From Limisphaerales bacterium (GTDB taxonomy: Bacteria > Verrucomicrobiota > Verrucomicrobiia > Limisphaerales > SXTU01): 62,197 bases of DNA. The translations under genes and the position numbers were made by a program. The notes under the pieces are model-generated. The model saw only the letters and a program-made list of their open reading frames with translations. It made no database searches and was not told the origin of the DNA. Of this stretch, positions 1-13,924 are shown in pieces. The stretch's first letter is position 1. Each line of letters begins with the position of its first letter. Where the stretch lies: the NCBI GenBank assembly GCA_009773355.1, contig WRPG01000039.1:1-62197 (forward strand). The letters are read 5' to 3'.

Positions 1-560
1 TGCTGGTGCTGGCCGCGGCGTGCGTGGCGATTGGCGTTGCGCCGGTGCTTTTCTGGCCGGCGGTCCTGCGCGCGGTGGGCGCGTGGCGGCCCGCGTGGGT
101 GAGCTTGGAAACGCCGCCGCCGCTGGTCGCGCTGGGCCTCTTCCAACTGGCGCTGGCGCTGCTGGCGACGCTCGCGGCCGTGTGGTTGTGGCAGCGCGTG
201 CGCGGTCGCGGCCTGTCCTCCGGCTTGACGTGGGATTGCGGCTATGCGACGCCAACACCCCGGATGCAATACACGGCCGGCTCCTTCGCGGGCATCATCA
301 CCGAATGGTTCGCGTGGATTCTGCGACCAGAGCGGCACGAGCATCGCCCGCAAGTGGTGTTGCCGGCGTCCGCTAGTTTCACCCAGCACACTCCCGAAAC
401 CGTGCTCGAACAACTCGTCGAGCCGGTGAGCGGCGTGGTGCTGCGCGTCTCCGCGACGGCGCGCCGGCTCCAGCACGGGCGCGTGCAATCCTACCTTTGG
501 TATTTGCTGATCGGGCTGGCCGCGCTGGCGGGCTTGGTTCTGTTTGGAGGCGGGCAATGA
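1..560 (+). CDS. HyfB-like antiporter subunit, C-terminal part (cut by window start)
   Basis: The reading frame is open from the first base and ends at TGA 558-560, so only the last ~185 residues of a larger gene are here. The fragment matches the C-terminus of the next HyfB-like protein (1515-3464) closely: both contain a conserved LTWDCGYA segment, a RMQYT motif, PETVLE, and a final ARRLQHGR followed by a membrane helix and a short Gly-rich tail. It is therefore a second, tandem copy of a proton-translocating antiporter-like subunit (Proton_antipo_M family) of a hydrogenase-4/complex I-related membrane complex. The N-terminal antiporter core is outside the window. Paralogy is seen directly; ion pumping is inferred from the family. 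Confidence 0.85.
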   Translation, partial: LVLAAACVAIGVAPVLFWPAVLRAVGAWRPAWVSLETPPPLVALGLFQLALALLATLAAVWLWQRVRGRGLSSGLTWDCGYATPTPRMQYTAGSFAGIITEWFAWILRPERHEHRPQVVLPASASFTQHTPETVLEQLVEPVSGVVLRVSATARRLQHGRVQSYLWYLLIGLAALAGLVLFGGGQ

Positions 561-810: not shown

Positions 811-1518
811 ATGTATCTGAACCTCATTCAAATCGCGGAGTCGTTCGGCGTCTCGGAGGCCGTGGTCGAAGGCTGGATTCGCAACGAGGGTCTGCCGCAC
901 ACGCCCGACCGGGGCCGGCTCCTGTTTGATCGCGCCCAAGTCGCGGAATGGGCGGCCAAGCGCGGCCTCGCGGCGCAGGCGGGCTTTCTCGCGCCGCAGG
1001 CGTCCGCGCTCGGAACCAGCCTGCGGCTCGGGCCGTTGCTGCGGGCTGGGGGCATCTGGCGCGACGTGCCGGCGGCGGAACTGCCGGCGACGTTCGAGCG
1101 CATCGTGACCGCCCTGCCCGGCGCGACCGCGCCCGTCCGTCAAATGCTCGGTCAGCGTTTGCGCACTCCCGGTGGCGTGACGATGGCCCCGGTCGGCGGC
1201 GGTCTCGCCCTGCCACATCCCAGCACGCGCATCACGCTGGGCCGCGACGCGGGCACGGTGGCCTTGCTGCTCCTGCGCGACGCGCTGACTTTGGCCGAGG
1301 GCGCTCCCGATGGCGTGCCCATCACCCGGCTGTGTTTCTTCATCGCCCCTTCGCCGCGGGCGCATCTGGACTTGCTCGCGCGCCTTAGCCGGGGGCTTGG
1401 TCGCGGGGCGTTGCGCGAACTCGTGCTCAAGGGTGCGCCCGACGGGGAAATCTTCTCAGCGGTGGATGCGTTGGATGCCGCGCTGGCAAGCGTGCCGAAA
1501 CCGGAGGTGAAGGCGTGA
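811..1518 (+). CDS. HTH domain fused to a PTS EIIA (PtsN-like) domain
   Basis: A 235-residue protein. Residues 1-50 form an excisionase/MerR-like helix-turn-helix (NLIQIAESFGVSEAVVEGWI, then a GRLLFDRAQVAEWA wing). Residues ~75-225 resemble the EIIA domain of the PtsN/fructose type, with the phosphorylatable His in GGGLALPHPSTR (His136). EIIA-Ntr proteins accept phosphate from NPr and act as regulators, not transporters. I chose ATG 811 because upstream codons in the same frame run through the palindromic repeat and look non-coding; no clear Shine-Dalgarno is present. The stop overlaps the start of the next HyfB-like gene (1515), so it is part of the membrane-complex operon. Role inferred: a phosphorylation-responsive regulator or accessory of the complex. 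Confidence 0.75.
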   Translation: MYLNLIQIAESFGVSEAVVEGWIRNEGLPHTPDRGRLLFDRAQVAEWAAKRGLAAQAGFLAPQASALGTSLRLGPLLRAGGIWRDVPAAELPATFERIVTALPGATAPVRQMLGQRLRTPGGVTMAPVGGGLALPHPSTRITLGRDAGTVALLLLRDALTLAEGAPDGVPITRLCFFIAPSPRAHLDLLARLSRGLGRGALRELVLKGAPDGEIFSAVDALDAALASVPKPEVKA

Positions 1519-3464
1519 TGTCCGGGCCGCTCCTGCTGCTCGCGTTCGTCGCCTTGGTGACGGCCATCCTCGTGGGCGTGCGGTCGTCGCGCTGGTGGCT
1601 GGCTCTGACTGTGACCGGCGCGGTCGCGGGGTTAATTGCGTCGCTGACGGTGCTGCTCGGCGCGACAGATTGGGAATGGCGGAGCGAACTTACACTCGGC
1701 GGCGAGCTCATTCACCTGCGGCTCGATGGCGTGAGCGCGCTGTTCCTCGCGCTGCTGTCCGTCGTGGGTGGAACTGGCGGGGTGTATGCCCGTGAGTATT
1801 GGTCGGAGCAGCATTACCCGGCCTCCGCGCCGCGCGGACGCGCGTGGTGGAGCGCGCTGGTGTTGTGCATGGGGCTGGTGCTCGTGTCGTCGAACGGCCT
1901 GCACTTCCTCATCGGCTGGGAACTTTTCACCGTCTGCGCCTACTTCCTCATCACGCTGGACCGGCGACGCCGCGAGGTGCGCGCGGCGGGCTGGTTGTAT
2001 CTGGCGGCGTCGCACGCGGGCACCGTGTGTCTCTTCGCGTTCTTCAGCACGCTCGCGGCACGCACCGGAAGCTGGGAACTCGGCCCGATGCGCGAGCAGG
2101 CCGGGCTGGCTCCGTTGTTCTGGCTCGCGCTCACCGGCTTCGGTGTGAAGGCCGGCGTCTTCCCGCTCCATGTCTGGCTGCCGTCCGCGCACGCGAGCGC
2201 TCCGAGCCACGTCTCCGCCATCCTCTCGGGCGTGGCGATCAAGATGGGCCTCTACGGAATCGTGCGGTTCAGCGGCTGGCTGCCGGTGCCGGCGGCGGCG
2301 GGCTGGGTGGTCATCGGGTTGGGTGCGACGAGCGCGCTGCTAGGCATCGCCTTCGCCCTCGCACAAAACGACTTCAAGCGGCTGCTGGCCTATTGCTCGG
2401 TGGAAAACGTCGGCGTCATCCTGATTGGCGTCGGCGCTGCGCTGCTCGCGGAGGCAAACGGGGACGCCCCATGGGGCCGCCTCGCGCTCGCGGGAGCGCT
2501 GCTGCATGTGTGGAATCACGGCGCGTTCAAGGCGCTCTTGTTCTTCAGCGCCGGCGCGGTGCTGCACGCCACGGGCACGCGCGAGATGAGCAAGCTGGGC
2601 GGCCTGTGGCGCACGATGCCGTGGACGGCCGGGCTGTTCGCGCTCGGGGCGGTCGCCGTCTCGGGGCTGCCGCCGCTGAACGGCTTCGTGAGCGAATGGC
2701 TGGTCTATCTCGGGTTGTTCGATGCCGTGACGGGCCGGGGGCCAGCGGCGTGGGCCGCGATGCCAGCGGCGATCATGCTGGCGATGACCGGCGCGCTCGC
2801 GATGGCCAGCTTCGCGAAAGCGGGGGCGATGATTTTCCTAGGCGCACCGCGCACGAAACCGGCGGCGCACGCGCACGAATGCGGCCCGGGCATGCGCGGG
2901 CCGATGCTGGTGCTCGCTGGACTGTGTGTGCTGATTGGTTTGTCGCCGGTGTTGTTCTGGCCGGCGGTGGCGCGCGCGGTGGCAAGCTGGCGTCCGGCGT
3001 GGGCGGCGGCGGAAGCGCCCGCGCCGCTGGCGATGCTGGGCTCGGTTCACGTCGTGCTGGCCGTCCTGATGGTCGCGGCGGCGGTCTGGCTATGGCGGAA
3101 GGCGCACGCGAACAGTGTGCGTCGTGGCCTGACGTGGGACTGCGGCTACGCGAGGCCGACCGTGCGGATGCAATACACCAGCGCGTCCTTCGCGGGGATT
3201 GCCACCGGCTGGTTCCGCTGGCTGCTGCAACCGGAGCGAACCCTGCGGCGACCGCGCGGGCTGTTCCCGACGGAGGCCATCCGGCTTGAGCGCGTGCCGG
3301 AAACCGTCTTGGAGAAGCTCCTCGGGCCGGTCAGCGTGGCCGTGATGCAGGTGTCCGCCGCCGCGCGCCGGCTGCAACACGGCCGGCTGCAAAGCTACGT
3401 CGTCTATGTGGTGGCCGGGCTGATGGCCTTGGGAGTTCTGGTCCTGCTGGGAGGCGCGCCATGA
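1515..3464 (+). CDS. hyfB: HyfB-like proton-translocating antiporter subunit
   Basis: A 649-residue polytopic membrane protein of the Proton_antipo_M family (NuoL/NuoM/MrpA/HyfB). The central antiporter core (residues ~110-420) shows the expected features: GWELFTVCAYFLI with a conserved membrane Glu, the GVKAGVFPLHVWLPSAHASA segment with its Lys and His, NDFKRLLAYCSVENVG, and LPPLNGFVSEWLVY. The C-terminal ~180 residues repeat those of the truncated gene at 1-560, so two HyfB-type subunits lie in tandem. Start ATG 1515 overlaps the TGA of the HTH-EIIA gene, and its own stop overlaps the next ATG at 3461, which indicates translational coupling. Expected role: ion translocation coupled to the peripheral redox module. 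Confidence 0.9.
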   Translation: MMSGPLLLLAFVALVTAILVGVRSSRWWLALTVTGAVAGLIASLTVLLGATDWEWRSELTLGGELIHLRLDGVSALFLALLSVVGGTGGVYAREYWSEQHYPASAPRGRAWWSALVLCMGLVLVSSNGLHFLIGWELFTVCAYFLITLDRRRREVRAAGWLYLAASHAGTVCLFAFFSTLAARTGSWELGPMREQAGLAPLFWLALTGFGVKAGVFPLHVWLPSAHASAPSHVSAILSGVAIKMGLYGIVRFSGWLPVPAAAGWVVIGLGATSALLGIAFALAQNDFKRLLAYCSVENVGVILIGVGAALLAEANGDAPWGRLALAGALLHVWNHGAFKALLFFSAGAVLHATGTREMSKLGGLWRTMPWTAGLFALGAVAVSGLPPLNGFVSEWLVYLGLFDAVTGRGPAAWAAMPAAIMLAMTGALAMASFAKAGAMIFLGAPRTKPAAHAHECGPGMRGPMLVLAGLCVLIGLSPVLFWPAVARAVASWRPAWAAAEAPAPLAMLGSVHVVLAVLMVAAAVWLWRKAHANSVRRGLTWDCGYARPTVRMQYTSASFAGIATGWFRWLLQPERTLRRPRGLFPTEAIRLERVPETVLEKLLGPVSVAVMQVSAAARRLQHGRLQSYVVYVVAGLMALGVLVLLGGAP

Positions 3465-4369
3465 TGCTGATGCTCGATCTCATACTGCGGCTCGTGCTGT
3501 GGCTGCTGCTGGCACCGCTGCTGCCGGGCGTCATCAACCGCGTGAAGGCCTGGGTGGCGGGCCGGCGCGGGCCGCCGGTGCTGCAACTCTACTACGACCT
3601 CGCGCGGTTGTGGCAGAAGGGCGTGGTGATGAGCACGCTGGCGTCGCCGGGATTCGTGGCCGGACCGGCGGTGGCGTGGGTGGCGCTGACGGGCGCGGCG
3701 CTGCTGATGCCGCTAGGTCCCGCCGGGGCGGCGTTCAGCTTCCGGGGCGATGTGCTGATGCTGATTTATCTGCTGGCACTGGCGCGGTTCTGCACGGCTT
3801 GGGCGGCGATGGAAACCGGTTCGGCGTTTGAAGGCATGGGCGCGGCGCGCGAGGTTAGCTACGCCGTTCTCGCGGAGGCGGCCATCATCACGGCGGTGCT
3901 GTCATTGAGCGTGCAGACCGGGAGCGTTTCACTGGTCTCGATGCTTGCGCCCTCGGCGGGAGCCGGCGCGGTGCTGCTGGCGGCGGGCCTGTTCACCGTG
4001 CTGCTGGCGGAAAATTGCCGCGTGCCGTTCGACGATCCCAACACGCACCTGGAGCTGACGATGATTCACGAAGTCATGGTGCTTGACCACAGCGGGCCGC
4101 CGCTCGCCGTGATTCTACACGGCGCATCCATGAAGCTGCTGCTGTTCGCCGTGCTGCTGGTCCAGGCGGTGCTGCCGATGGGCGACATGTCGCCGCTCGC
4201 CGCAACCGGCGCGCTGGCCGGCGGCGTCCTGGCGGTGATGATCGGCGTGGGGTTGATTGAATCGCTGCTCGCACGGCTGGCGTTCCGGCGCGTGCCGCTG
4301 CTGCTCACCACGGCGTTTCTCCTGTGTCTGTTTGCGCTGCTGGTGGCGTGGAAAGGCAACCGCGTATGA
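3461..4369 (+). CDS. hyfC: HyfC/NuoH-like membrane subunit
   Basis: A 302-residue membrane protein of the respiratory complex I subunit 1 family (NuoH, HycD, HyfC). Family signatures are visible: LPGVINRVKAWVAGRRGP near the N-terminus, a loop with YYDLARLWQK, ETGSAFEGMGAAREV, and the conserved acidic stretch ENCRVPFDDPNTHLELTMIH. This subunit joins the membrane arm to the hydrophilic module and lines the quinone-like or proton-entry cavity in complex I relatives. The gene starts with ATGA overlapping the hyfB stop and its end overlaps the hyfE start at 4366. Length is usual for the family. Confidence 0.92.
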   Translation: MMLMLDLILRLVLWLLLAPLLPGVINRVKAWVAGRRGPPVLQLYYDLARLWQKGVVMSTLASPGFVAGPAVAWVALTGAALLMPLGPAGAAFSFRGDVLMLIYLLALARFCTAWAAMETGSAFEGMGAAREVSYAVLAEAAIITAVLSLSVQTGSVSLVSMLAPSAGAGAVLLAAGLFTVLLAENCRVPFDDPNTHLELTMIHEVMVLDHSGPPLAVILHGASMKLLLFAVLLVQAVLPMGDMSPLAATGALAGGVLAVMIGVGLIESLLARLAFRRVPLLLTTAFLLCLFALLVAWKGNRV

Positions 4370-5010
4370 ATGAAACGCTGAACCTGCTGATCGGCCTGGC
4401 GATGGGGCTGAACCTGCTCGCGCTGGGCAGCAGCCGGCTGCCATCGCTCATCCAGGCCATGTCCTTTCAGGGGATGTTGCTGGGCCTGATGCCGCTGATC
4501 ATGGAACACGAGCATCTCGACTGGCGGCTGGGGCTGATCGCGCTGGCCACCATCGCCGGCAAGGGCGTGGTGATTCCCACCCTGCTGCGGCGGGCGATGC
4601 GCGCGGCAAACATTGACCGGGAAATCGAGCCGTTCATCGGCTTCGTGCCGTCGCTGCTGCTCGGGGCCGCCGGCACGATTGCGGCGGTGGCGCTGTCGCA
4701 GGCGCTGCCGCTGCTGCCCGAGCACGCCGGGTTGCTGCTGGTGCCGGGCGCGATTGCGTCGGTGCTGACCGGCTTCGTCCTGCTGATCGGGCGGGCCGAG
4801 GCGATTTCCCAGGTCTGCGGCTATCTGATTTTGGAAAACGGCATCTACCTCTTCGGCTTGCTGCTCATCCGTTCAACCCCGCTGGTGGTGGAGTCGGGCA
4901 TTCTGCTGGATGTCACCGTGGGCGTGTTCGTCATCGGCATCATCGTGGACCGCATCCAGCGCGCCTTCGACTCGCTCGACACGCGGAAACTCACTGCGCT
5001 CCGGGAATGA
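4366..5010 (+). CDS. hyfE: HyfE-like membrane subunit
   Basis: A 214-residue protein with about six or seven membrane helices, matching the hydrogenase-4 HyfE family, which is a NuoK-like subunit with extra helices. The first ~75 residues (NETLNLLIGLAMGLNLLALG) begin the membrane part; a C-terminal LILENGIYLFGLLL helix contains the family Glu. It ends in a short charged tail. I chose ATG 4366 over an upstream in-frame ATG (4324) because it overlaps the hyfC stop by four bases, like its neighbours, and gives the usual N-terminus. Confidence 0.87.
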   Translation: MNETLNLLIGLAMGLNLLALGSSRLPSLIQAMSFQGMLLGLMPLIMEHEHLDWRLGLIALATIAGKGVVIPTLLRRAMRAANIDREIEPFIGFVPSLLLGAAGTIAAVALSQALPLLPEHAGLLLVPGAIASVLTGFVLLIGRAEAISQVCGYLILENGIYLFGLLLIRSTPLVVESGILLDVTVGVFVIGIIVDRIQRAFDSLDTRKLTALRE

Positions 5011-6455
5011 ACGCCCTCCTCCTCGTCATCATTCCGCTCGTGGGGGCGGGCGTCGCGGCCCTCTGGCCGAACAACCGCACGCGGCCTTGGCTGCTGCCAA
5101 TCGTCGGCCTTGCGCACGTCGTGCTGACCGGCTGGATGTTTCTGGACCCGCCCGAAGTGGCCTCGAACGCCTGGCTGGCCTTTGACCCGCTGGCGCGGGC
5201 GGTGCTGCCGGCGGTGTCGTTGCTGTTCCTCGTCTGCGCCGCTTACGGCGTGACCTATCTGCAAATCCGGTCCGAGCGGCCCAACCGTGTGTTCGTCGCG
5301 CTGCTGCTGGCGGTGCTGGGCTTGTTGAGCGCCGGGCATCAGGCGCGACATCTGGGGTTGCTGTGGATCGCGACCGAGGGAGTCACGCTTGCGGCTGTGC
5401 CGCTGCTGCACTTCAACGCCACGCCGCGCGCCTATGAGGCGACTTGGAAATACCTGCTCGTCGGCGGCACGGGCATCGCGCTGTCGCTGCTCGGTTCGTT
5501 CTGCCTCGGCTACGCGTCGCTGCACGGCGGCGGTGGCGGCGACTTGACGTTCGTCGCCTTGATGTCGCAGGGAGCCGGCCTCTCCCGCCCGTGGGTGCTG
5601 ACCGCGTGGGTGCTGCTGCTGGTCGGCTACGGCACGAAGATGGGCCTCGCGCCGATGCACACCTGGAAGCCCGACGCCTACGGCGAAGCACCCGGCATCG
5701 TGGGCGCGATTTTGGCGGGCGGCGTTACAACGGTGGCATTCACCGCGATCCTGCGTATCCGCGCCGTCATCGCCGCCGCCGGGGAAGGCCCCATCGCCGA
5801 CCGCACGCTGCTGGCCATCGGATTGTTCTCGATGCTGGTGGCGGCGTTGTTTCTGCTGGGCACTCGCGACTTCAAGCGGATGCTCGCGTATTCCAGCGTG
5901 GAGCACATGGGCATCCTGAGCGTCGGCGCGGCGCTGGGCGGTCCGGGCCTGGCGGCGGCGCTGTTCCATGTGTGGACCAATGGACTTACGAAGGGGACGC
6001 TCTTCCTGAGCGCGGGCAACATTCGCCGCGCCGCCGGCTCGCCCTCGATGGACCAGGTGCGCGGCATGGCGGTGCTTACACCACGCTCGGCGGCGATTTT
6101 CGTCACCGGGATGTTCGCCGTCACCGCGCTGCCGCCCTTCGGCCCGTTCTTCAGCGAACTGCAACTCGTGCGCGCCGCGCTTGCCGGCGGGCACGGCACC
6201 GCCTCGGCCGTGTTTCTCGGCTGCCTGCTGCTGGCCTTCTTCGGCCTGACGCGCGTGGTCTTCGGCATCGTGGACGGACGCCCGCGCACGGCGGCGCGGG
6301 CGAACGGCAAGCGCTTTGTCGAAACGGCCGGCGTCATCGCGCCGCCGCTGGTGCTGCTCGGCATGTCCCTCTGGCTTGGACTCTGCACGCCGGAGATTTT
6401 GCGCGAGGCCTGGGCGGCGGCCGTCGCCCAGCTTTTCCCGACTTCAACGCCATGA
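5007..6455 (+). CDS. hyfF: HyfF-like antiporter subunit
   Basis: A 482-residue polytopic protein of the Proton_antipo_M family, closest in layout to hydrogenase-4 subunit F. Visible signatures: IATEGVTLAAVPLLHF with the membrane Glu, TKMGLAPMHTWKPDAYGEAP with conserved Lys and His, RDFKRMLAYSSVEHMGIL, and LPPFGPFFSELQL. It is shorter than the HyfB-type protein and lacks its C-terminal extension. ATG 5007 overlaps the hyfE TGA, and its end overlaps the next start at 6452. Together with two HyfB copies, the complex would have at least three antiporter-like subunits. Confidence 0.9.
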   Translation: MNALLLVIIPLVGAGVAALWPNNRTRPWLLPIVGLAHVVLTGWMFLDPPEVASNAWLAFDPLARAVLPAVSLLFLVCAAYGVTYLQIRSERPNRVFVALLLAVLGLLSAGHQARHLGLLWIATEGVTLAAVPLLHFNATPRAYEATWKYLLVGGTGIALSLLGSFCLGYASLHGGGGGDLTFVALMSQGAGLSRPWVLTAWVLLLVGYGTKMGLAPMHTWKPDAYGEAPGIVGAILAGGVTTVAFTAILRIRAVIAAAGEGPIADRTLLAIGLFSMLVAALFLLGTRDFKRMLAYSSVEHMGILSVGAALGGPGLAAALFHVWTNGLTKGTLFLSAGNIRRAAGSPSMDQVRGMAVLTPRSAAIFVTGMFAVTALPPFGPFFSELQLVRAALAGGHGTASAVFLGCLLLAFFGLTRVVFGIVDGRPRTAARANGKRFVETAGVIAPPLVLLGMSLWLGLCTPEILREAWAAAVAQLFPTSTP

Positions 6456-7933
6456 GCGCCTCCACCCCCTTCGCCCTGCTGGCTAACGCCACGAGCATCC
6501 CGTGGGCAGAAGTGCCGGCGTGGCCGGTGGCGGAATTGGTGCGCGCCACCGCGGAGGAGTTGAATCGTGGCGGACGGCTGTGCGCGTGGTTCGGCGTGCC
6601 GGAAGGCGAGGCCACCTGCCTCGTCGCCGTGCTGGCTTTCGACGCCGACAACACGCTCGCGGTCGGACGCAGTCTGCCGTTCACGGGAAACTATCCCGCG
6701 CTCACGGCCACGCATTCACAGGCGCACCTGTTCGAGCGCGAGGTCTGGGAGCAACACGGCCTCACGCCCGAGGGCCATCCGTGGCTCAAGCCCGTGCGAC
6801 GAACGAACGGCGACGCGCCGGCCAACGGCGAGTTCTTCCGCGTGGACGGGCGCGAGGTTCACGAGGTCGCCGTCGGCCCCGTCCACGCCGGCGTCATCGA
6901 GCCGGGCCACTTCCGTTTCCAGTGTGCGGGCGAGGAAGTCCTGCATTTGGAAATTGCGCTGGGCTACCAGCATCGCGGCGCGGAAACGGCGCTGGCCGGC
7001 GGCCCGCATCGCGCGACGATGAGCCAGATGGAAACGGTGGCGGGCGACACGACCGTCGCGCACGCCACTGCGCACGCGACGATTATGGAAGCCCTCGCCG
7101 GAACCGAGGCTCCGCTGCGTGCGCAATGGCTGCGGGCCATCGCGCTCGAACTCGAACGGCTGGCCAACCACACCGGCGACATGGGCGCGCTGGCCGGCGA
7201 CGTGGCGTTTCTGCCCACGCAATCGGCGTGCGGCAAACTCCGTGGCGATTACTTGAACCTCACCGCGCTGCTCTGCGGCAACCGGTTCGGTCGCGGCCTT
7301 GTGCGCCCTGGCGGTTGTCGGCACGACCTTGAACCCGCCCGCGCCGTGCAGATGCTTGAACGGCTTGCCCCCGCCCTCGCCGACACCGAGCAGGCCGTCG
7401 CATGGTTCTGGGATGCCGCGTCGGTTCGCGCGCGTTTCGAGAACGTCGGCACGGTCTTCGCCGCACAGGCCGCCGAGATTGGACTGGTCGGTCCGGCGGC
7501 GCGCGCCTGCGGCCTGGTGCGCGACGTGCGTTACGATCATCCGGCTGGGTGGCATCGCTTCGCGCAGGCACCGGTCGCCGTGTGGCCCGGCGGGGACGTG
7601 TTCGCCCGCGCCCGCGTGCGTTCGCTGGAAATCCAGCGGTCAGGAGACTTCTTGCGCGAGCAGCTCGCCACGCCGCCAGAGGGCGAACTGCACGGCGAAC
7701 TTCCGCCGCCTTCGCCTGACATGCTCGCCGTGACACTCGTCGAAGGCTGGCGCGGCGAGGTCTGTCATGTGGCGTTGACCGATGCCGCCGGGCGCTTCCG
7801 CCGCTACAAGCTCGTTGACCCCTCGTTCCACAACTGGACCGGCCTCGCGCTCGCGCTGCGCGGCACGGCCATCTCGGATTTTCCGATCTGCAACAAGAGC
7901 TTCAACCTCTCCTACTGCGGCTTCGACCTGTGA
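6452..7933 (+). CDS. HyfG/NuoCD-like large subunit lacking Ni-Fe ligands
   Basis: A 493-residue soluble protein. Residues ~20-115 correspond to the NuoC/30-kDa part and residues ~130-493 to the NuoD/hydrogenase large-subunit part (VGPVHAGVIEPGHFRF, LGYQHRGAE, ELERLANHTGDMGALAGDV). In true group 4 hydrogenases the first metal motif reads like ERVCGICGFAH. Here the same place reads ETVAGDTTVAH (about residues 194-204), with no cysteine. The C-terminal motif DPCxxC is replaced by NLSYCGFDL. The protein cannot bind a standard Ni-Fe centre, so the complex is Ehr-like (energy-converting hydrogenase related), with an unknown electron acceptor. ATG 6452 was chosen because it overlaps the hyfF stop; a much longer open frame upstream is antisense-like noise. 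Confidence 0.9.
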   Translation: MSASTPFALLANATSIPWAEVPAWPVAELVRATAEELNRGGRLCAWFGVPEGEATCLVAVLAFDADNTLAVGRSLPFTGNYPALTATHSQAHLFEREVWEQHGLTPEGHPWLKPVRRTNGDAPANGEFFRVDGREVHEVAVGPVHAGVIEPGHFRFQCAGEEVLHLEIALGYQHRGAETALAGGPHRATMSQMETVAGDTTVAHATAHATIMEALAGTEAPLRAQWLRAIALELERLANHTGDMGALAGDVAFLPTQSACGKLRGDYLNLTALLCGNRFGRGLVRPGGCRHDLEPARAVQMLERLAPALADTEQAVAWFWDAASVRARFENVGTVFAAQAAEIGLVGPAARACGLVRDVRYDHPAGWHRFAQAPVAVWPGGDVFARARVRSLEIQRSGDFLREQLATPPEGELHGELPPPSPDMLAVTLVEGWRGEVCHVALTDAAGRFRRYKLVDPSFHNWTGLALALRGTAISDFPICNKSFNLSYCGFDL

Positions 7934-7948
7934 CGCCGATCTCTCGCC

Positions 7949-8734
7949 ATGTTCGTCCTTGATACCATCGCCCATCGCCTGAAGCGCGGCTGCGAGACGA
8001 TGGCCTATCCCGCCGGCCCGGCTCCCGCGCTGCCGGACCGCCACGGTGGCGCGCTCAAGGTTGAGGCCAGCAAATGCGCCGATGGTTGCAACGTGTGTGT
8101 GCCAGTCTGTCCGACGCAGGCCATCACGCGCCCGGAGGGAAAGCCGGTGGCGCTCGATTTGGGTCGCTGCATTTTCTGCGCGGCATGCGTCGAGGCATGT
8201 CCGACGAAGGCCATAACGCAGACCGGCGATCACCGCATGGCAGTTCGCCGCCGCGAAGACCTCGTCCTTGGCCAGGCCGGCGAGGAGCAAGTGCGGCTTG
8301 CCGCCGCCCTCGATGAGAAACTGCGGAAACTCTTTGGCCGGTCGCTGCGCCTGCGGCAGGTGAGTGCCGGCGGCTGCAACGCCTGCGAAGCGGACGTCAA
8401 CGTGCTCGGCACCATCGGCTGGGACTTGAGCCGCTTCGGCATCCAGTTCGTCGCCTCGCCACGTCACGCGGACGGGTTGCTCATCACCGGTCCAGTCAGT
8501 AAGGGCATGGAACTGGCATTGAAGAAAACCTACGATGCCGTGCCGCCGCCGAAAATCGTCATCGCCGTGGGCGCGTGCGCCATTGCCGGCGGGCCGTTCG
8601 TGGGCCACGCGCAGGTCCGCGATGGCGCGGCTGCCATCGTGCCTGTGGACCTCTTCATCCCCGGCTGTCCGCCGCATCCGCTCACGATTCTCGACGGCCT
8701 CTTGCGCGTGCTGGGCCGGTTGGAAAAAGGCTGA
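7949..8734 (+). CDS. hyfI: Ferredoxin domain fused to HyfI/NuoB-like subunit
   Basis: A 261-residue protein joining two subunits that are separate in E. coli hydrogenase-4. Residues ~36-92 form a two-cluster ferredoxin (HyfH-like) with cysteines at 43, 47, 50, 54 and 74, 77, 80, 84. Residues ~130-261 are NuoB/HyfI-like, with cluster ligands Cys143 and Cys146 (GGCNACEADV), Cys210 (VGACAIAGGPF) and Cys240 (PGCPPHP). It would carry electrons from an unknown donor through three 4Fe-4S clusters to the large subunit. It is the last gene of the operon, 15 bp after the large subunit, and converges on the acetyltransferase-like gene. Confidence 0.92.
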   Translation: MFVLDTIAHRLKRGCETMAYPAGPAPALPDRHGGALKVEASKCADGCNVCVPVCPTQAITRPEGKPVALDLGRCIFCAACVEACPTKAITQTGDHRMAVRRREDLVLGQAGEEQVRLAAALDEKLRKLFGRSLRLRQVSAGGCNACEADVNVLGTIGWDLSRFGIQFVASPRHADGLLITGPVSKGMELALKKTYDAVPPPKIVIAVGACAIAGGPFVGHAQVRDGAAAIVPVDLFIPGCPPHPLTILDGLLRVLGRLEKG

Positions 8735-9861: not shown

Positions 9862-11058
<1,197 letters not shown>

Positions 11059-11073
11059 TTCACACACTTAACC

Positions 11074-11104
11074 GGGGCGTGAGGGGTGAAAACCTCGCGC
11101 CCCC
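11074..11104 (+). terminator. Hairpin after tuf
   Basis: GGGGCG-T-GAGG (11074-11084) pairs with CCTC-GCGCCCC (11094-11104). The following sequence is only moderately T-rich (CTTTCGTCTCTCT), so it may be a partial terminator or a processing site between tuf and tRNA-Trp. Confidence 0.45.
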
Positions 11105-11139
11105 TTTCGTCTCTCTGAACAAAGGCACTCAATGGCGAT

Positions 11140-11215
11140 ACGGCGTTAGCTCAATTGGTAGAGTAGCGGTCTCCAAAACCGTTGGTTGGGGGTTCGAGTC
11201 CCTCACGCCGTGCCA
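11140..11215 (+). tRNA. tRNA-Trp(CCA)
   Basis: Acceptor ACGGCGT pairs with ACGCCGT. D-arm TAGCTCAATTGGTAGAG. Anticodon loop CTCCAAA gives anticodon CCA. T-loop TTCGAGT, discriminator G and encoded CCA at 11213-11215. Placement of tRNA-Trp between tuf and secE is common in bacteria. Confidence 0.95.
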
Positions 11216-11228
11216 GTGCCCGGCCCCC

Positions 11229-11319
11229 GGAGGGGTGGCAGAGTGGTCTATCGCGGCGGTCTTGAAAACCGCTTTGGGCTAAACACCCAACGGGGGTTCG
11301 AATCCCTCCCCCTCCGCCA
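11229..11319 (+). tRNA. tRNA-Ser(TGA)
   Basis: Acceptor GGAGGGG pairs with CCCCTCC. Anticodon loop CTTGAAA gives anticodon TGA. A long variable arm (TTTGGGCTAAACACCCAAC) marks it as a class II tRNA, and T-loop and CCA end (11317-11319) are present. It is 13 bp after tRNA-Trp. Confidence 0.93.
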
Positions 11320-11348
11320 AATCGGATGACGCAGTAACGAACGAATTT

Positions 11349-11606
11349 GTGAGCACGTTGCAAATGATTCTGCTGGGTGTGGCCGTCGCCGTGTTCTTCT
11401 GGGCATGGCAGAAGGGCCACCTGCTCCGGCTGGGCAATTACGTGGACGAGACGAAGGTCGAGCTGCGCAAATGCACCTGGCCCACGCGCGAGGAGCTGAA
11501 AGGCTCGACCGTCGTGGTCATCGTCAGCACCGGCATCGTGGCGATCTTCACGGTCGGCGTGGATTTCTTCATCAGCCAGTTGGTGATCATGCTGAACAAA
11601 TTTTAA
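11349..11606 (+). CDS. secE: Preprotein translocase subunit SecE
   Basis: An 85-residue protein with a short N-terminal helix and one main C-terminal membrane helix (about residues 55-78). The conserved amphipathic segment KVELRKCTWPTREELKGST marks SecE, which clamps SecY in the translocon. The most upstream start is GTG 11349; the first in-frame ATG is at 11364 and would cut five residues. The order tuf, tRNA-Trp, secE, nusG, rplK is widespread, which supports the call. rpmG, often found before secE, is not here. Confidence 0.95.
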   Translation: MSTLQMILLGVAVAVFFWAWQKGHLLRLGNYVDETKVELRKCTWPTREELKGSTVVVIVSTGIVAIFTVGVDFFISQLVIMLNKF

Positions 11607-11619
11607 GGACACCCACGCC

Positions 11620-12168
11620 ATGCAAAGCCAGTGGTTCGCCATTCACACGTTGTCCGGCCAGGAGCTGAAGGTCCGCGACAACATCGAGAAGCGCATCAAG
11701 ACCGAGGAGATGCAGGACTACATCAAGGAAGTCCTCGTCCCCATGGAGAAGGTCGTCGAGGTCCGCAACCAGAAGAAGACCGTCACGAACCGCAAGCTGC
11801 ACCCCGGCTACGTCTATATTGACATGGTGCTGCTGGACGAGAACCGCCGCCTGCTGGACCGGCCCTGGTATTTCATCCGCGAGACGACCGGCATCATCGG
11901 CTTCGTCGGCGGCGAGCGCCCCGTGCCCGTGGCCCGCGAGGAAATCGAGGTCATCAAGGAGCAGGTCTCGCAGTCCGAGGACACCGAGAAGCCGAAGGTC
12001 AACTTCGAGGTCGGCGAGACCATCAAGATCAACGACGGCCCGTTCCTGAACTTCAGCGGCGTGATCGAGGAGATTGACCCGGCGCGCGGCAAGCTGAAGG
12101 TCACCGTCAACATTTTCGGACGCAACACGCCCGTCGAACTCGAATACTGGCAGGTCGAAAAGGCGTAG
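11620..12168 (+). CDS. nusG: Transcription antitermination factor NusG
   Basis: A 182-residue protein with the NGN domain at the N-terminus (QWFAIHTLSGQELKVRDNIE, then VLVPMEKV and HPGYVYIDM) and a C-terminal KOW domain (about residues 128-180, VGETIKINDGPFLNFSGVIE). NusG binds RNA polymerase, lowers pausing and links it to Rho or to the ribosome. It follows secE by 13 bp, as expected. Length and motifs are normal. Confidence 0.97.
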   Translation: MQSQWFAIHTLSGQELKVRDNIEKRIKTEEMQDYIKEVLVPMEKVVEVRNQKKTVTNRKLHPGYVYIDMVLLDENRRLLDRPWYFIRETTGIIGFVGGERPVPVAREEIEVIKEQVSQSEDTEKPKVNFEVGETIKINDGPFLNFSGVIEEIDPARGKLKVTVNIFGRNTPVELEYWQVEKA

Positions 12169-12213
12169 CCCGCGTCACTCCAGCGACAGCAACGACAGCA
12201 TTTTCATCCCCTT

Positions 12214-12639
12214 ATGGCAAAGAAAGTAACCGGATCCATCAAGCTCGCCATTGCCGCCGGCCAGGCGAACCCCGCCCCGCCCGTCGGCCCCGCGCTCGGC
12301 CAGCACGGCGTGAACATCATGGCGTTCTGCAAGGAATTCAACGCGGCCACCAAGGACCAGGCCGGCCTCGTGATTCCCGTCATCATCACCGTCTATCAGG
12401 ACAAGTCCTTCACCTGCGTCTACAAGTCGCCGCCCGCGTCCATCCTGCTCAAGAAGGCCGCCGGCGTCGCCTCCGGCTCCAAGACACCGAACAAGGACAA
12501 GGTCGGCAAGGTCACGCGCAAGCAGATCCTCGACATCGTGAAGATGAAGCAGAAGGACCTGAACGTGAACAGCGAGGACGCCGCCGTGCGCCTCATCTCC
12601 GGCACCGCGCGGAGCATGGGAATTGAAGTCGTCGGTTAA
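12214..12639 (+). CDS. rplK: Ribosomal protein L11
   Basis: A 141-residue protein, the normal L11 length. The N-terminal domain ([36 protein letters not shown]) and the C-terminal rRNA-binding domain ([15 protein letters not shown], ending RSMGIEV) are typical. It belongs to the GTPase-associated centre of the 50S subunit. ATG 12214 lies 45 bp after nusG and 50 bp before rplA in the usual order. Confidence 0.98.
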
Positions 12640-12689
12640 ACCAAAACGCGGGAGGGCGCTCTGCGTCCGCATGCACCGCACCAAACAAA

Positions 12690-13391
12690 ATGCCCAGCAA
12701 ACGCCACAACAAGAACGCGAAGTTGGTCGAAGGCCAGAAGGCTCTCCCCCTCAAGGAGGCCGTCCAGCTTCTCGCCAAGTTCGAGAAAGCCAAGTTCAAC
12801 GAGACCATTGACCTCGCCTTCCGCCTCGGGGTGGACCCGAAGCAGAGCGACCAGATGGTCCGCGGCACCGTCCCGTTGCCCCACGGCTCCGGCAAGGTCG
12901 TCCGCGTGCTCGTGTTCGCCAAGCCCGGCCCCACCGCTGACGCCGCCCGCGCGGCCGGCGCGGAGTTCGTCGGCTTCGAGGACATGATCACCAAGTGCAC
13001 CTCCGGCTGGGTGGACTTCGATGTTGCCGTCGCCACGCCCGAGGCGATGGTCGAAGTCCGCAAGCTTGGCAAGGTGCTCGGCCCGCGCGGCCTCATGCCC
13101 AACCCGAAGACCGGCACCGTGACCGAGGACACCGCCAAGGCCGTCAGGGAAGTGAAGGCGGGCCGCGTCGAGTTCAAGGTGGACAAGGCCGGCAACATCC
13201 ACGTCCCCGTCGGCAAGGCCGCGTTCAAGCCCGAGGAAATCGAGGAGAACGCCCGCTCCGTCATTGAGGCTGTCTCCAAGGCGCGTCCCGCCAGCGTGAA
13301 GGGTGTCTTCATGCTCTCCTGCACCATCTCGGCCACCATGAGTCCGGGCGTCCGCGTGGACACCCGCGAGTTCGTCGCCTCCGCCGCCTAA
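12690..13391 (+). CDS. rplA: Ribosomal protein L1
   Basis: A 233-residue protein of normal L1 length. Family motifs include FNETIDLAFRLGVDPKQSDQ, RGTVPLPHGSG and LGPRGLMPNPKTGTVT. L1 forms the L1 stalk of the 50S subunit and in many bacteria represses its own operon by binding the mRNA leader. Only 20 bp separate it from rplJ, so the classic L10 leader site is absent from that gap. Confidence 0.98.
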   Translation: MPSKRHNKNAKLVEGQKALPLKEAVQLLAKFEKAKFNETIDLAFRLGVDPKQSDQMVRGTVPLPHGSGKVVRVLVFAKPGPTADAARAAGAEFVGFEDMITKCTSGWVDFDVAVATPEAMVEVRKLGKVLGPRGLMPNPKTGTVTEDTAKAVREVKAGRVEFKVDKAGNIHVPVGKAAFKPEEIEENARSVIEAVSKARPASVKGVFMLSCTISATMSPGVRVDTREFVASAA

Positions 13392-13411
13392 CCTCCAACA
13401 CGACACTTACC

Positions 13412-13924
13412 ATGCGCGCCGAAAAGAAATTCATCACCACCGAATACGTCGCCCGGCTCAACGCCTCGCCGTTTTTCATCGTCGTGGACTACACGGGCCT
13501 GACCGTGACGCATTTCAACGAACTGCGCAGCCGCCTCCGCAAGGGCGGGGCCGAGGCGCACGTCGTGAAGAACAGCATCTTCCGCATCGCCGCCAAGGAA
13601 GCCGGCCTCGCCGACCTCTCGGGCACGCTCGCGGGCCAGCTCGCCGTCATCACCGGCCAGAAGGACGTCTCCGCCGCCGCGAAGACGCTCAAGAACTTCG
13701 CCGCCGAGTTCGAGAAGCCGAAGCTCAAGTTCGGCCATCTCGGCAACAAGCGCCTCGAAAGCGCCGACCTGCTCGCGCTCGCCGACCTGCCCTCGCTGGA
13801 AGTCCTGCGTGGCAAGCTCCTCGGCGTGCTGCAAGCCCCGGCTCAGAAGCTCGCGGCCATCATCAACACGCCCGGCTCGCAGCTCGCGCGGGTCATCAAG
13901 GCCAAAGCCGACAAGGGCGCATAA
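13412..13924 (+). CDS. rplJ: Ribosomal protein L10
   Basis: A 170-residue protein with the L10 N-terminal domain (ARLNASPFFIVVDYTGLT, FNELRSRLRKGGAEAHVVKN) and the C-terminal helix that carries L7/L12 dimers (APAQKLAAIINTPGSQLARV). It anchors the stalk. rplL follows after 125 bp with a strong hairpin in the gap. Length is normal. Confidence 0.97.
   Translation: MRAEKKFITTEYVARLNASPFFIVVDYTGLTVTHFNELRSRLRKGGAEAHVVKNSIFRIAAKEAGLADLSGTLAGQLAVITGQKDVSAAAKTLKNFAAEFEKPKLKFGHLGNKRLESADLLALADLPSLEVLRGKLLGVLQAPAQKLAAIINTPGSQLARVIKAKADKGA

Follow-up and report, generated by a model that had tools for sequence, protein, structure and literature searches.

A protein in which a winged helix-turn-helix (HTH) domain is joined to an EIIA domain of the phosphotransferase system (PTS) is encoded, in a Limisphaerales bacterium, inside the operon of a complex-I-like membrane complex of the Ehr type, and relatives of this HTH-EIIA gene stand beside Ehr genes in other Verrucomicrobiota genomes. 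The reading that we prefer, with about even confidence, is that the protein descends from an autoregulator and serves the Ehr complex as a dedicated PTS output, and that in its own branch of the family (the window clade) it acts mainly on the complex itself. The window is the whole stretch of DNA that was analysed, 62,197 nucleotides long (contig WRPG01000039.1), with the following features:

3 to 560, plus strand: hyfB1, C-terminal 185 amino acids, gene cut by the contig start (NCBIfam PRK06521 hydrogenase 4 subunit B, E 5.7e-19)
595 to 750, no strand assigned: dispersed repeat between hyfB1 and the HTH-EIIA gene (36 own-genome matches, itself included)
811 to 1518, plus strand: HTH-EIIA gene, open reading frame of 235 amino acids
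814 to 963, plus strand: winged HTH, HTH_17 (Pfam), residues 2-51; Gly21 replaces the base-reading Arg, with Glu at 20
1018 to 1479, plus strand: EIIA-Ntr-like domain, residues about 70-223 (Z 13.2 to 4gqx, 143 residues aligned)
1216 to 1218, plus strand: codon of H136, predicted phospho-histidine in GGGLALPHPS (invariant, 47/47)
1363 to 1365, plus strand: codon of H185, second EIIA histidine in PRAHLDLL (invariant, 47/47)
1518 to 3464, plus strand: hyfB2, antiporter-like membrane subunit (PF00361 E 7e-49, PRK06521 E 4e-152); a GTG start at 1515 is also possible
3461 to 4369, plus strand: hyfC / NuoH-like subunit (PF00146 E 4e-25)
4366 to 5010, plus strand: hyfE-like subunit (PRK11492 E 5e-21)
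5007 to 6455, plus strand: hyfF, antiporter-like subunit (PF00361 E 8e-47)
6452 to 7933, plus strand: hyfG-like large subunit (NuoCD-like), without NiFe-ligand CxxC motifs (PF00346/PF00329)
7949 to 8734, plus strand: hyfI-like subunit, ferredoxin domain fused to a NuoB-like domain (PF01058 E 2e-25, Fer4)

The first-pass annotation had described this gene as a DNA-binding domain joined to a PtsN-like EIIA domain and translationally coupled to a HyfB-like gene, and both points are borne out. The window protein matches the Pfam domain HTH_17 with E 2.4e-6 (28.1 bits, above the cut-off of 27), and PTS_EIIA_2 (PF00359) is matched at residues 129-214 with E 5e-4 (20.5 bits, short of the curated cut-off, which is 27); two HTH-EIIA proteins of the sister clade score 80-86 with the latter model. 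The NCBIfam PtsN model gave no match to the window protein, and Pfam gave no PRD domain in it. The protein was modelled with AlphaFold from a 47-row alignment (mean pLDDT 90.7), and the best fold match of its C-terminal two thirds is EIIA-Ntr 4gqx (Z 13.2, rmsd 3.0, 143 residues), the rows of the fold comparison mainly spanning residues 67-235. EIIA-like cytoplasmic domains of SLC4 bicarbonate exchangers are also among the fold matches, a likeness to be read as analogy only. Both EIIA histidines, H136 and H185, are kept in all 47 aligned HTH-EIIA relatives. As for the coupling, the stop codon overlaps the start of hyfB2 (GTGATG, 1515-1520), and an [AG]TGA overlap is found at the 3' junction in 20 of the 21 members of the window clade; in L002 and L011, which have no hyfB2, this overlap precedes hyfC.

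A single operon of the window encodes the Hyf-like subunits of both kinds, membrane and hydrophilic (hyfB, C, E, F, G and I). In its large subunit, which was aligned with HycE of FHL and with MBH as references, VAGDTT stands in place of the VCGICG of HycE (7z0s) and the C-terminal motif differs too; HypD was not matched in the own genome (95% complete). A group 4 [NiFe] hydrogenase is ruled out by the absence of the CxxC motifs and of HypD, and since the large subunit lacks the NiFe-ligand cysteines, the complex is of the Ehr type (complex-I/Hyf-like) in the sense of the available text of PMC6349859 and PMC6688271. An invariant C-x8-C (C480 and C489; 'CNKSFNLSYC') was seen in 19 of 19 rows of Ehr large subunits, near the position of the second hydrogenase CxxC, and is possibly a cofactor or structural site. 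Two observations concern the gene surroundings: behind the operon (window 9862-13924), an acetyltransferase-like open reading frame on the minus strand is followed by tuf, secE, nusG and ribosomal protein genes, as judged by eye, and in L130 (G099:C1:3160000-3174000) a window-type operon harbours, between its hyfF and hyfG, another, distinct Ehr operon (hyfB-C-E-F-G-I).

The reverse complement of contig C25 (G000:C25:1-58) ends in an exact 58-base overlap with window 1-58, so that C25 is placed directly upstream of the window; in this orientation it carries, in order, a gene for an EIIA protein of 175 amino acids, a SulP transporter gene and the rest of hyfB1. The order in the own genome is very probably EIIA, SulP, hyfB1, HTH-EIIA, hyfB2 and hyfC-E-F-G-I. 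Elsewhere, SulP lies upstream of hyfB1 in L010, L012 and L084, and the HTH-EIIA gene comes immediately after SulP in L098, as it does in 6 of the 20 window-type loci sampled from the window's own order (L160, L162, L165, L169, L170, L171); a small EIIA gene immediately precedes hyfB1 in L013. Upstream of SulP in L010, on the opposite strand (L010:1957-4735), two genes resemble by eye the subunits of a 2-oxoacid:ferredoxin oxidoreductase, a possible electron source for the Ehr complex.

The HTH-EIIA proteins are of two types. The window clade is monophyletic within the family (21 of 21 members, support 1.0) and its stem is long, at 1.8 substitutions per site (FastTree); the sister type, here called EIIA', is 21-29% identical to the window protein. 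EIIA' genes head Ehr operons, and where both types share one operon (L006, L011 and L063) the EIIA' gene comes first and the window type lies deeper. Seven EIIA' loci stand alone, the stretch fetched around them containing no hyf gene, so that linkage to Ehr is not obligatory in the wider family. In two genomes with two Ehr operons each (L045:16865 and L080:5641), one HTH-EIIA protein was seen to have Asn for the recognition Arg, to lack the upstream repeat described below and to branch beside the window clade.

The position of the gene beside Ehr/HyfB genes is conserved in other genomes. In the genome-contig set, all 13 relatives lie inside an Ehr operon, with hyfB1 before the gene in 12 and hyfB2 after it in 11. 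When the HTH-EIIA profile was run against 288 Verrucomicrobiota genomes, 177 were matched at E 1e-8, many of these matches being general EIIA proteins; a flanking hyf gene was found in 26 of 30 fetched HTH-EIIA loci, and in 25 of those 26 it is hyfB. Seen from the complex, the best 32 Ehr large subunits by score have an HTH-EIIA gene within 16 kb in 28 cases, always upstream and on the same strand, as opposed to 3 of the next 6, 2 of the following 34 and 1 of the last 24; the top class is not an independent sample, since both ranking profiles were made from linked loci and thus favour linked matches. For this count, coordinates were copied by hand and the HTH-EIIA list was taken down to 91 bits, and among the four unlinked top large subunits at least one (G101) resembles a contig break. 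In a second sample, from the window's own order, 27 of 29 HTH-EIIA loci adjoin hyf genes. Operons with two hyfB genes make up 23 of 42 with HTH-EIIA versus none of 16 without it, as counted from hand-made lists in which some stretches end at contig ends. In 20 loci that surround Ehr operons lacking a linked match, a search at E 1e-3 detected no EIIA at all; the same model detected EIIA in 6 of 6 control loci. A chance neighbour is ruled out by these counts (13/13, 28/32 of the top large subunits and 27/29 in the order sample).

The distribution of HTH-EIIA is nevertheless patchy, because five genomes of the window's genus (G313, G364, G392, G413 and G432) gave no match, and from these perhaps the whole operon is missing as well. 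No HTH-EIIA relative was found in a search of viral contigs, and among 271 records from a plasmid search with a sister protein none covered 80% of the query, the matches listed being general EIIA proteins. No fusion of HTH-EIIA to HyfB was seen, and no paper on HTH-EIIA proteins in Ehr operons was found in the open-licence PMC literature.

With regard to a phosphoryl donor, the own genome encodes one HPr, adjoining HprK, one EI and, besides the single HTH-EIIA protein, two further EIIA proteins, with no match for EIIC. The EI has 597 amino acids and scores 610.6 bits with the PtsI model PRK11177 versus 420.9 bits with model PRK11061, and no GAF domain was matched in it. The first-pass annotation had linked the complex to the nitrogen-type PTS and pointed to ptsP and ptsO genes; of this, the presence of EI and HPr and the absence of EIIC stand, but the EI is of the PtsI type without GAF, not of the PtsP type, and HprK is present, so that the genome is best described as having a regulatory PTS but no textbook PTS-Ntr. 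All 35 genomes examined have EI and HPr, the 10 without an HTH-EIIA match included, so that the presence of these proteins is not diagnostic and only makes phosphorylation possible. In such a relay, H136 of the EIIA domain would accept a phosphoryl group from EI via HPr, and the phosphorylation state would report the PEP/pyruvate balance.

An expectation-maximisation motif search in the 220 bp upstream of 21 operon-head EIIA' genes returned TGTCCtcAAATGTCaA with a score of 123 (shuffles: mean 52, max 58), and the seven stand-alone EIIA' genes give the same upstream motif (score 56 vs a shuffle max of 37.5). The motif is a direct repeat with a 10-bp period, TGTC-N6-TGTC, which is present upstream of 15 of 22 operon heads and 4 of 7 stand-alone genes, versus 36 of 4677 background tiles (0.8%); other TGTC spacings show no peak, except two periods. 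The exact repeat is missing in the remaining 7 of the 22 operon heads, and among EIIA' genes outside the discovery set it occurs in 3 of 8 and 4 of 7. Two of the 16 Ehr operons that have no EIIA, L113 and L114, carry it as well, perhaps by chance or for regulation at a distance. Action of the repeat in trans is ruled against by the Ehr operons L121 and L123, which lack it and whose HTH-EIIA lies elsewhere in the genome. In L175, L176 and L178 a TTGACA box precedes the repeat, which itself is placed 49-51 bases ahead of the start codon, an arrangement that would suit a repressor. In 35 genomes a longer pattern, TGTCCNNAAATGTC, was matched 23 times, in 8 cases shortly before an EIIA' gene. The other 15 matches are not beside an HTH-EIIA gene and are about as many as a reversed-pattern control gives (13), so that no case is made for a wider regulon. 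On this sequence evidence, TGTC-N6-TGTC is probably the operator of the sister-type HTH-EIIA proteins.

The window clade differs in this respect. The repeat was found upstream of none of 17 window-clade operons and none of 21 HTH-EIIA genes of the clade, and in none of 19 held-out members. In BldC, bases are read by Arg30 and Lys26, and binding is abolished in R30A (available text of PMC5859096); these residues were equated by eye with HTH-EIIA positions 21 and 17, which are Arg and Lys in most EIIA' proteins. Arg21 is present in 30 of 37 proteins of the sister set versus 1 of 21 in the window clade and 0 of 19 in its held-out members from the order sample; within the sister type, the repeat accompanies 21 of 30 genes with Arg21 versus 1 of 7 without it (Fisher 0.011, a rough guide since the rows are related). 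At position 21 the window clade has G in 12, D in 7 and R in 1 of 21 (Gly21 in the window protein), position 17 is K in 9 of 21, and Glu20 is invariant in the first set (21 of 21) and kept by 15 of 19 in the order sample. The HTH carries a net charge of -1 to -4 in 21 of 21 members, versus medians of +1 and +3 in two sister sets. The window branch thus seems, to judge from its residues, to have given up DNA reading of the sister type. Regulation of the operon, one of two roles that the first-pass annotation had offered, is well supported for the sister clade by its conserved upstream repeat but not for the window clade, where the repeat and the base-reading residue are lost; for the window protein the candidates are then the other role, phosphorylation-dependent binding to the complex, and a changed DNA specificity.

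The ancestral form would be a one-component transcription factor, still encoded by the first gene of many Ehr operons, whose BldC-like winged HTH would bind TGTC-N6-TGTC at its own promoter and which would set expression of the Ehr operon by EIIA phosphorylation. In the window clade the protein is encoded inside the operon beside one or two hyfB genes, its HTH being without the base-reading residues and the operator, and since these are lost it would now act mainly on the complex. Phosphorylation of the EIIA domain would here switch binding to a membrane subunit. As the most constant neighbour, HyfB is the nearest candidate for this subunit; in L002 and L011, hyfC follows the HTH-EIIA gene, but hyfB1 precedes it. 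Dephosphorylated PtsN is known to control K+ transport proteins, which is a precedent for the action proposed for the window protein.

The strongest rival, which we consider rather unlikely, is that the window protein has remained a sequence-specific transcription factor of its operon but recognises another operator through an altered recognition helix. No segment is better conserved in the window clade than the HTH (mean pairwise column identity 0.77 vs 0.70 for the EIIA core), which therefore still has some role. W22, R24 and R36, all invariant, could contact DNA, and R41 is invariant too; this makes altered DNA specificity a serious rival for a protein embedded in its operon and descended from apparent DNA-binders. 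Against this, the equivalents of the base contacts of BldC are variable (positions 17 and 21, as given above), Glu20 lies on the recognition helix in 21 of 21 and the HTH is net-negative in as many, and upstream motifs of width 16 from expectation maximisation are weak (55.3 vs a shuffle max of 48.8; 54.6 vs 51.2). That the EIIA domain has left phosphotransfer and become a structural scaffold, or that the gene is a bystander of operon inheritance, would agree with the EIIA match below the Pfam cut-off and with the long stem branch of the clade, but is improbable given that both histidines are kept in 47 of 47 and that linkage persists across many families of the phylum. Most improbable is action only via a sister HTH-EIIA protein, with which the window protein would form mixed oligomers on the repeat, either as an antagonist or as a partner that does not itself bind; three operons do hold both types, but the window's own genome has a single HTH-EIIA, and no partner was found there.

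Several known systems are close to the window protein and its complex. The window protein is like EIIA-Ntr (PtsN) in its EIIA fold with phospho-His and second His, in a regulatory, non-sugar-transporting setting and a genome without EIIC, but unlike it in having an N-terminal winged HTH, in lying in an Ehr operon and in the PtsI-type EI. PRD-containing PTS regulators of the LicR, MtlR and BglG type are HTH or RNA-binding proteins controlled by PTS phosphorylation, some with EIIA, whose targets are sugar operons, whereas the window protein has no PRD and belongs to an ion-pump operon. Small winged HTH proteins of the BldC/MerR-like and excisionase types also have the HTH_17 domain. A weak match to the BldC family model (E 1.5e-5) was obtained for the sister clade, which resembles BldC in keeping the base-reading Arg and in short direct repeats upstream (9-bp in BldC, in the available text of PMC5859096), while HTH-EIIA differs in carrying an EIIA domain and in the 10-bp period of its repeat, and the window clade in having lost the Arg. 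Ehr complexes such as ehrABCDLS of Methylacidiphilum have a Hyf-like gene set and a large subunit without Ni/Fe ligands (PMC6688271, PMC6349859, in the parts available); unlike these, the window operon adds a second HyfB and one or two EIIA genes, with SulP in several genomes, and no PTS protein is mentioned for Ehr complexes in the available parts of the two papers.

A conserved PTS protein inside the operon, a predicted operator and a SulP neighbour are concrete handles on the role of Ehr. They bear on the signal to which the cell would respond in making or using the complex, namely PEP/pyruvate status, and on the possible cargo, which may be an anion (bicarbonate or sulfate, for example) moved along with H+ or Na+. 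In addition, the family forms a natural series of winged HTH domains that retain fold and conservation and lose their DNA-reading residues and their site. More tentatively, a PTS-controlled transcription factor may have been captured within the operon formerly under its control and turned into a phosphorylation-switched accessory of a complex-I-like pump coupled to SulP, with PEP status gating the complex; if this is true, glycolytic PEP status would directly gate a respiratory-type complex.
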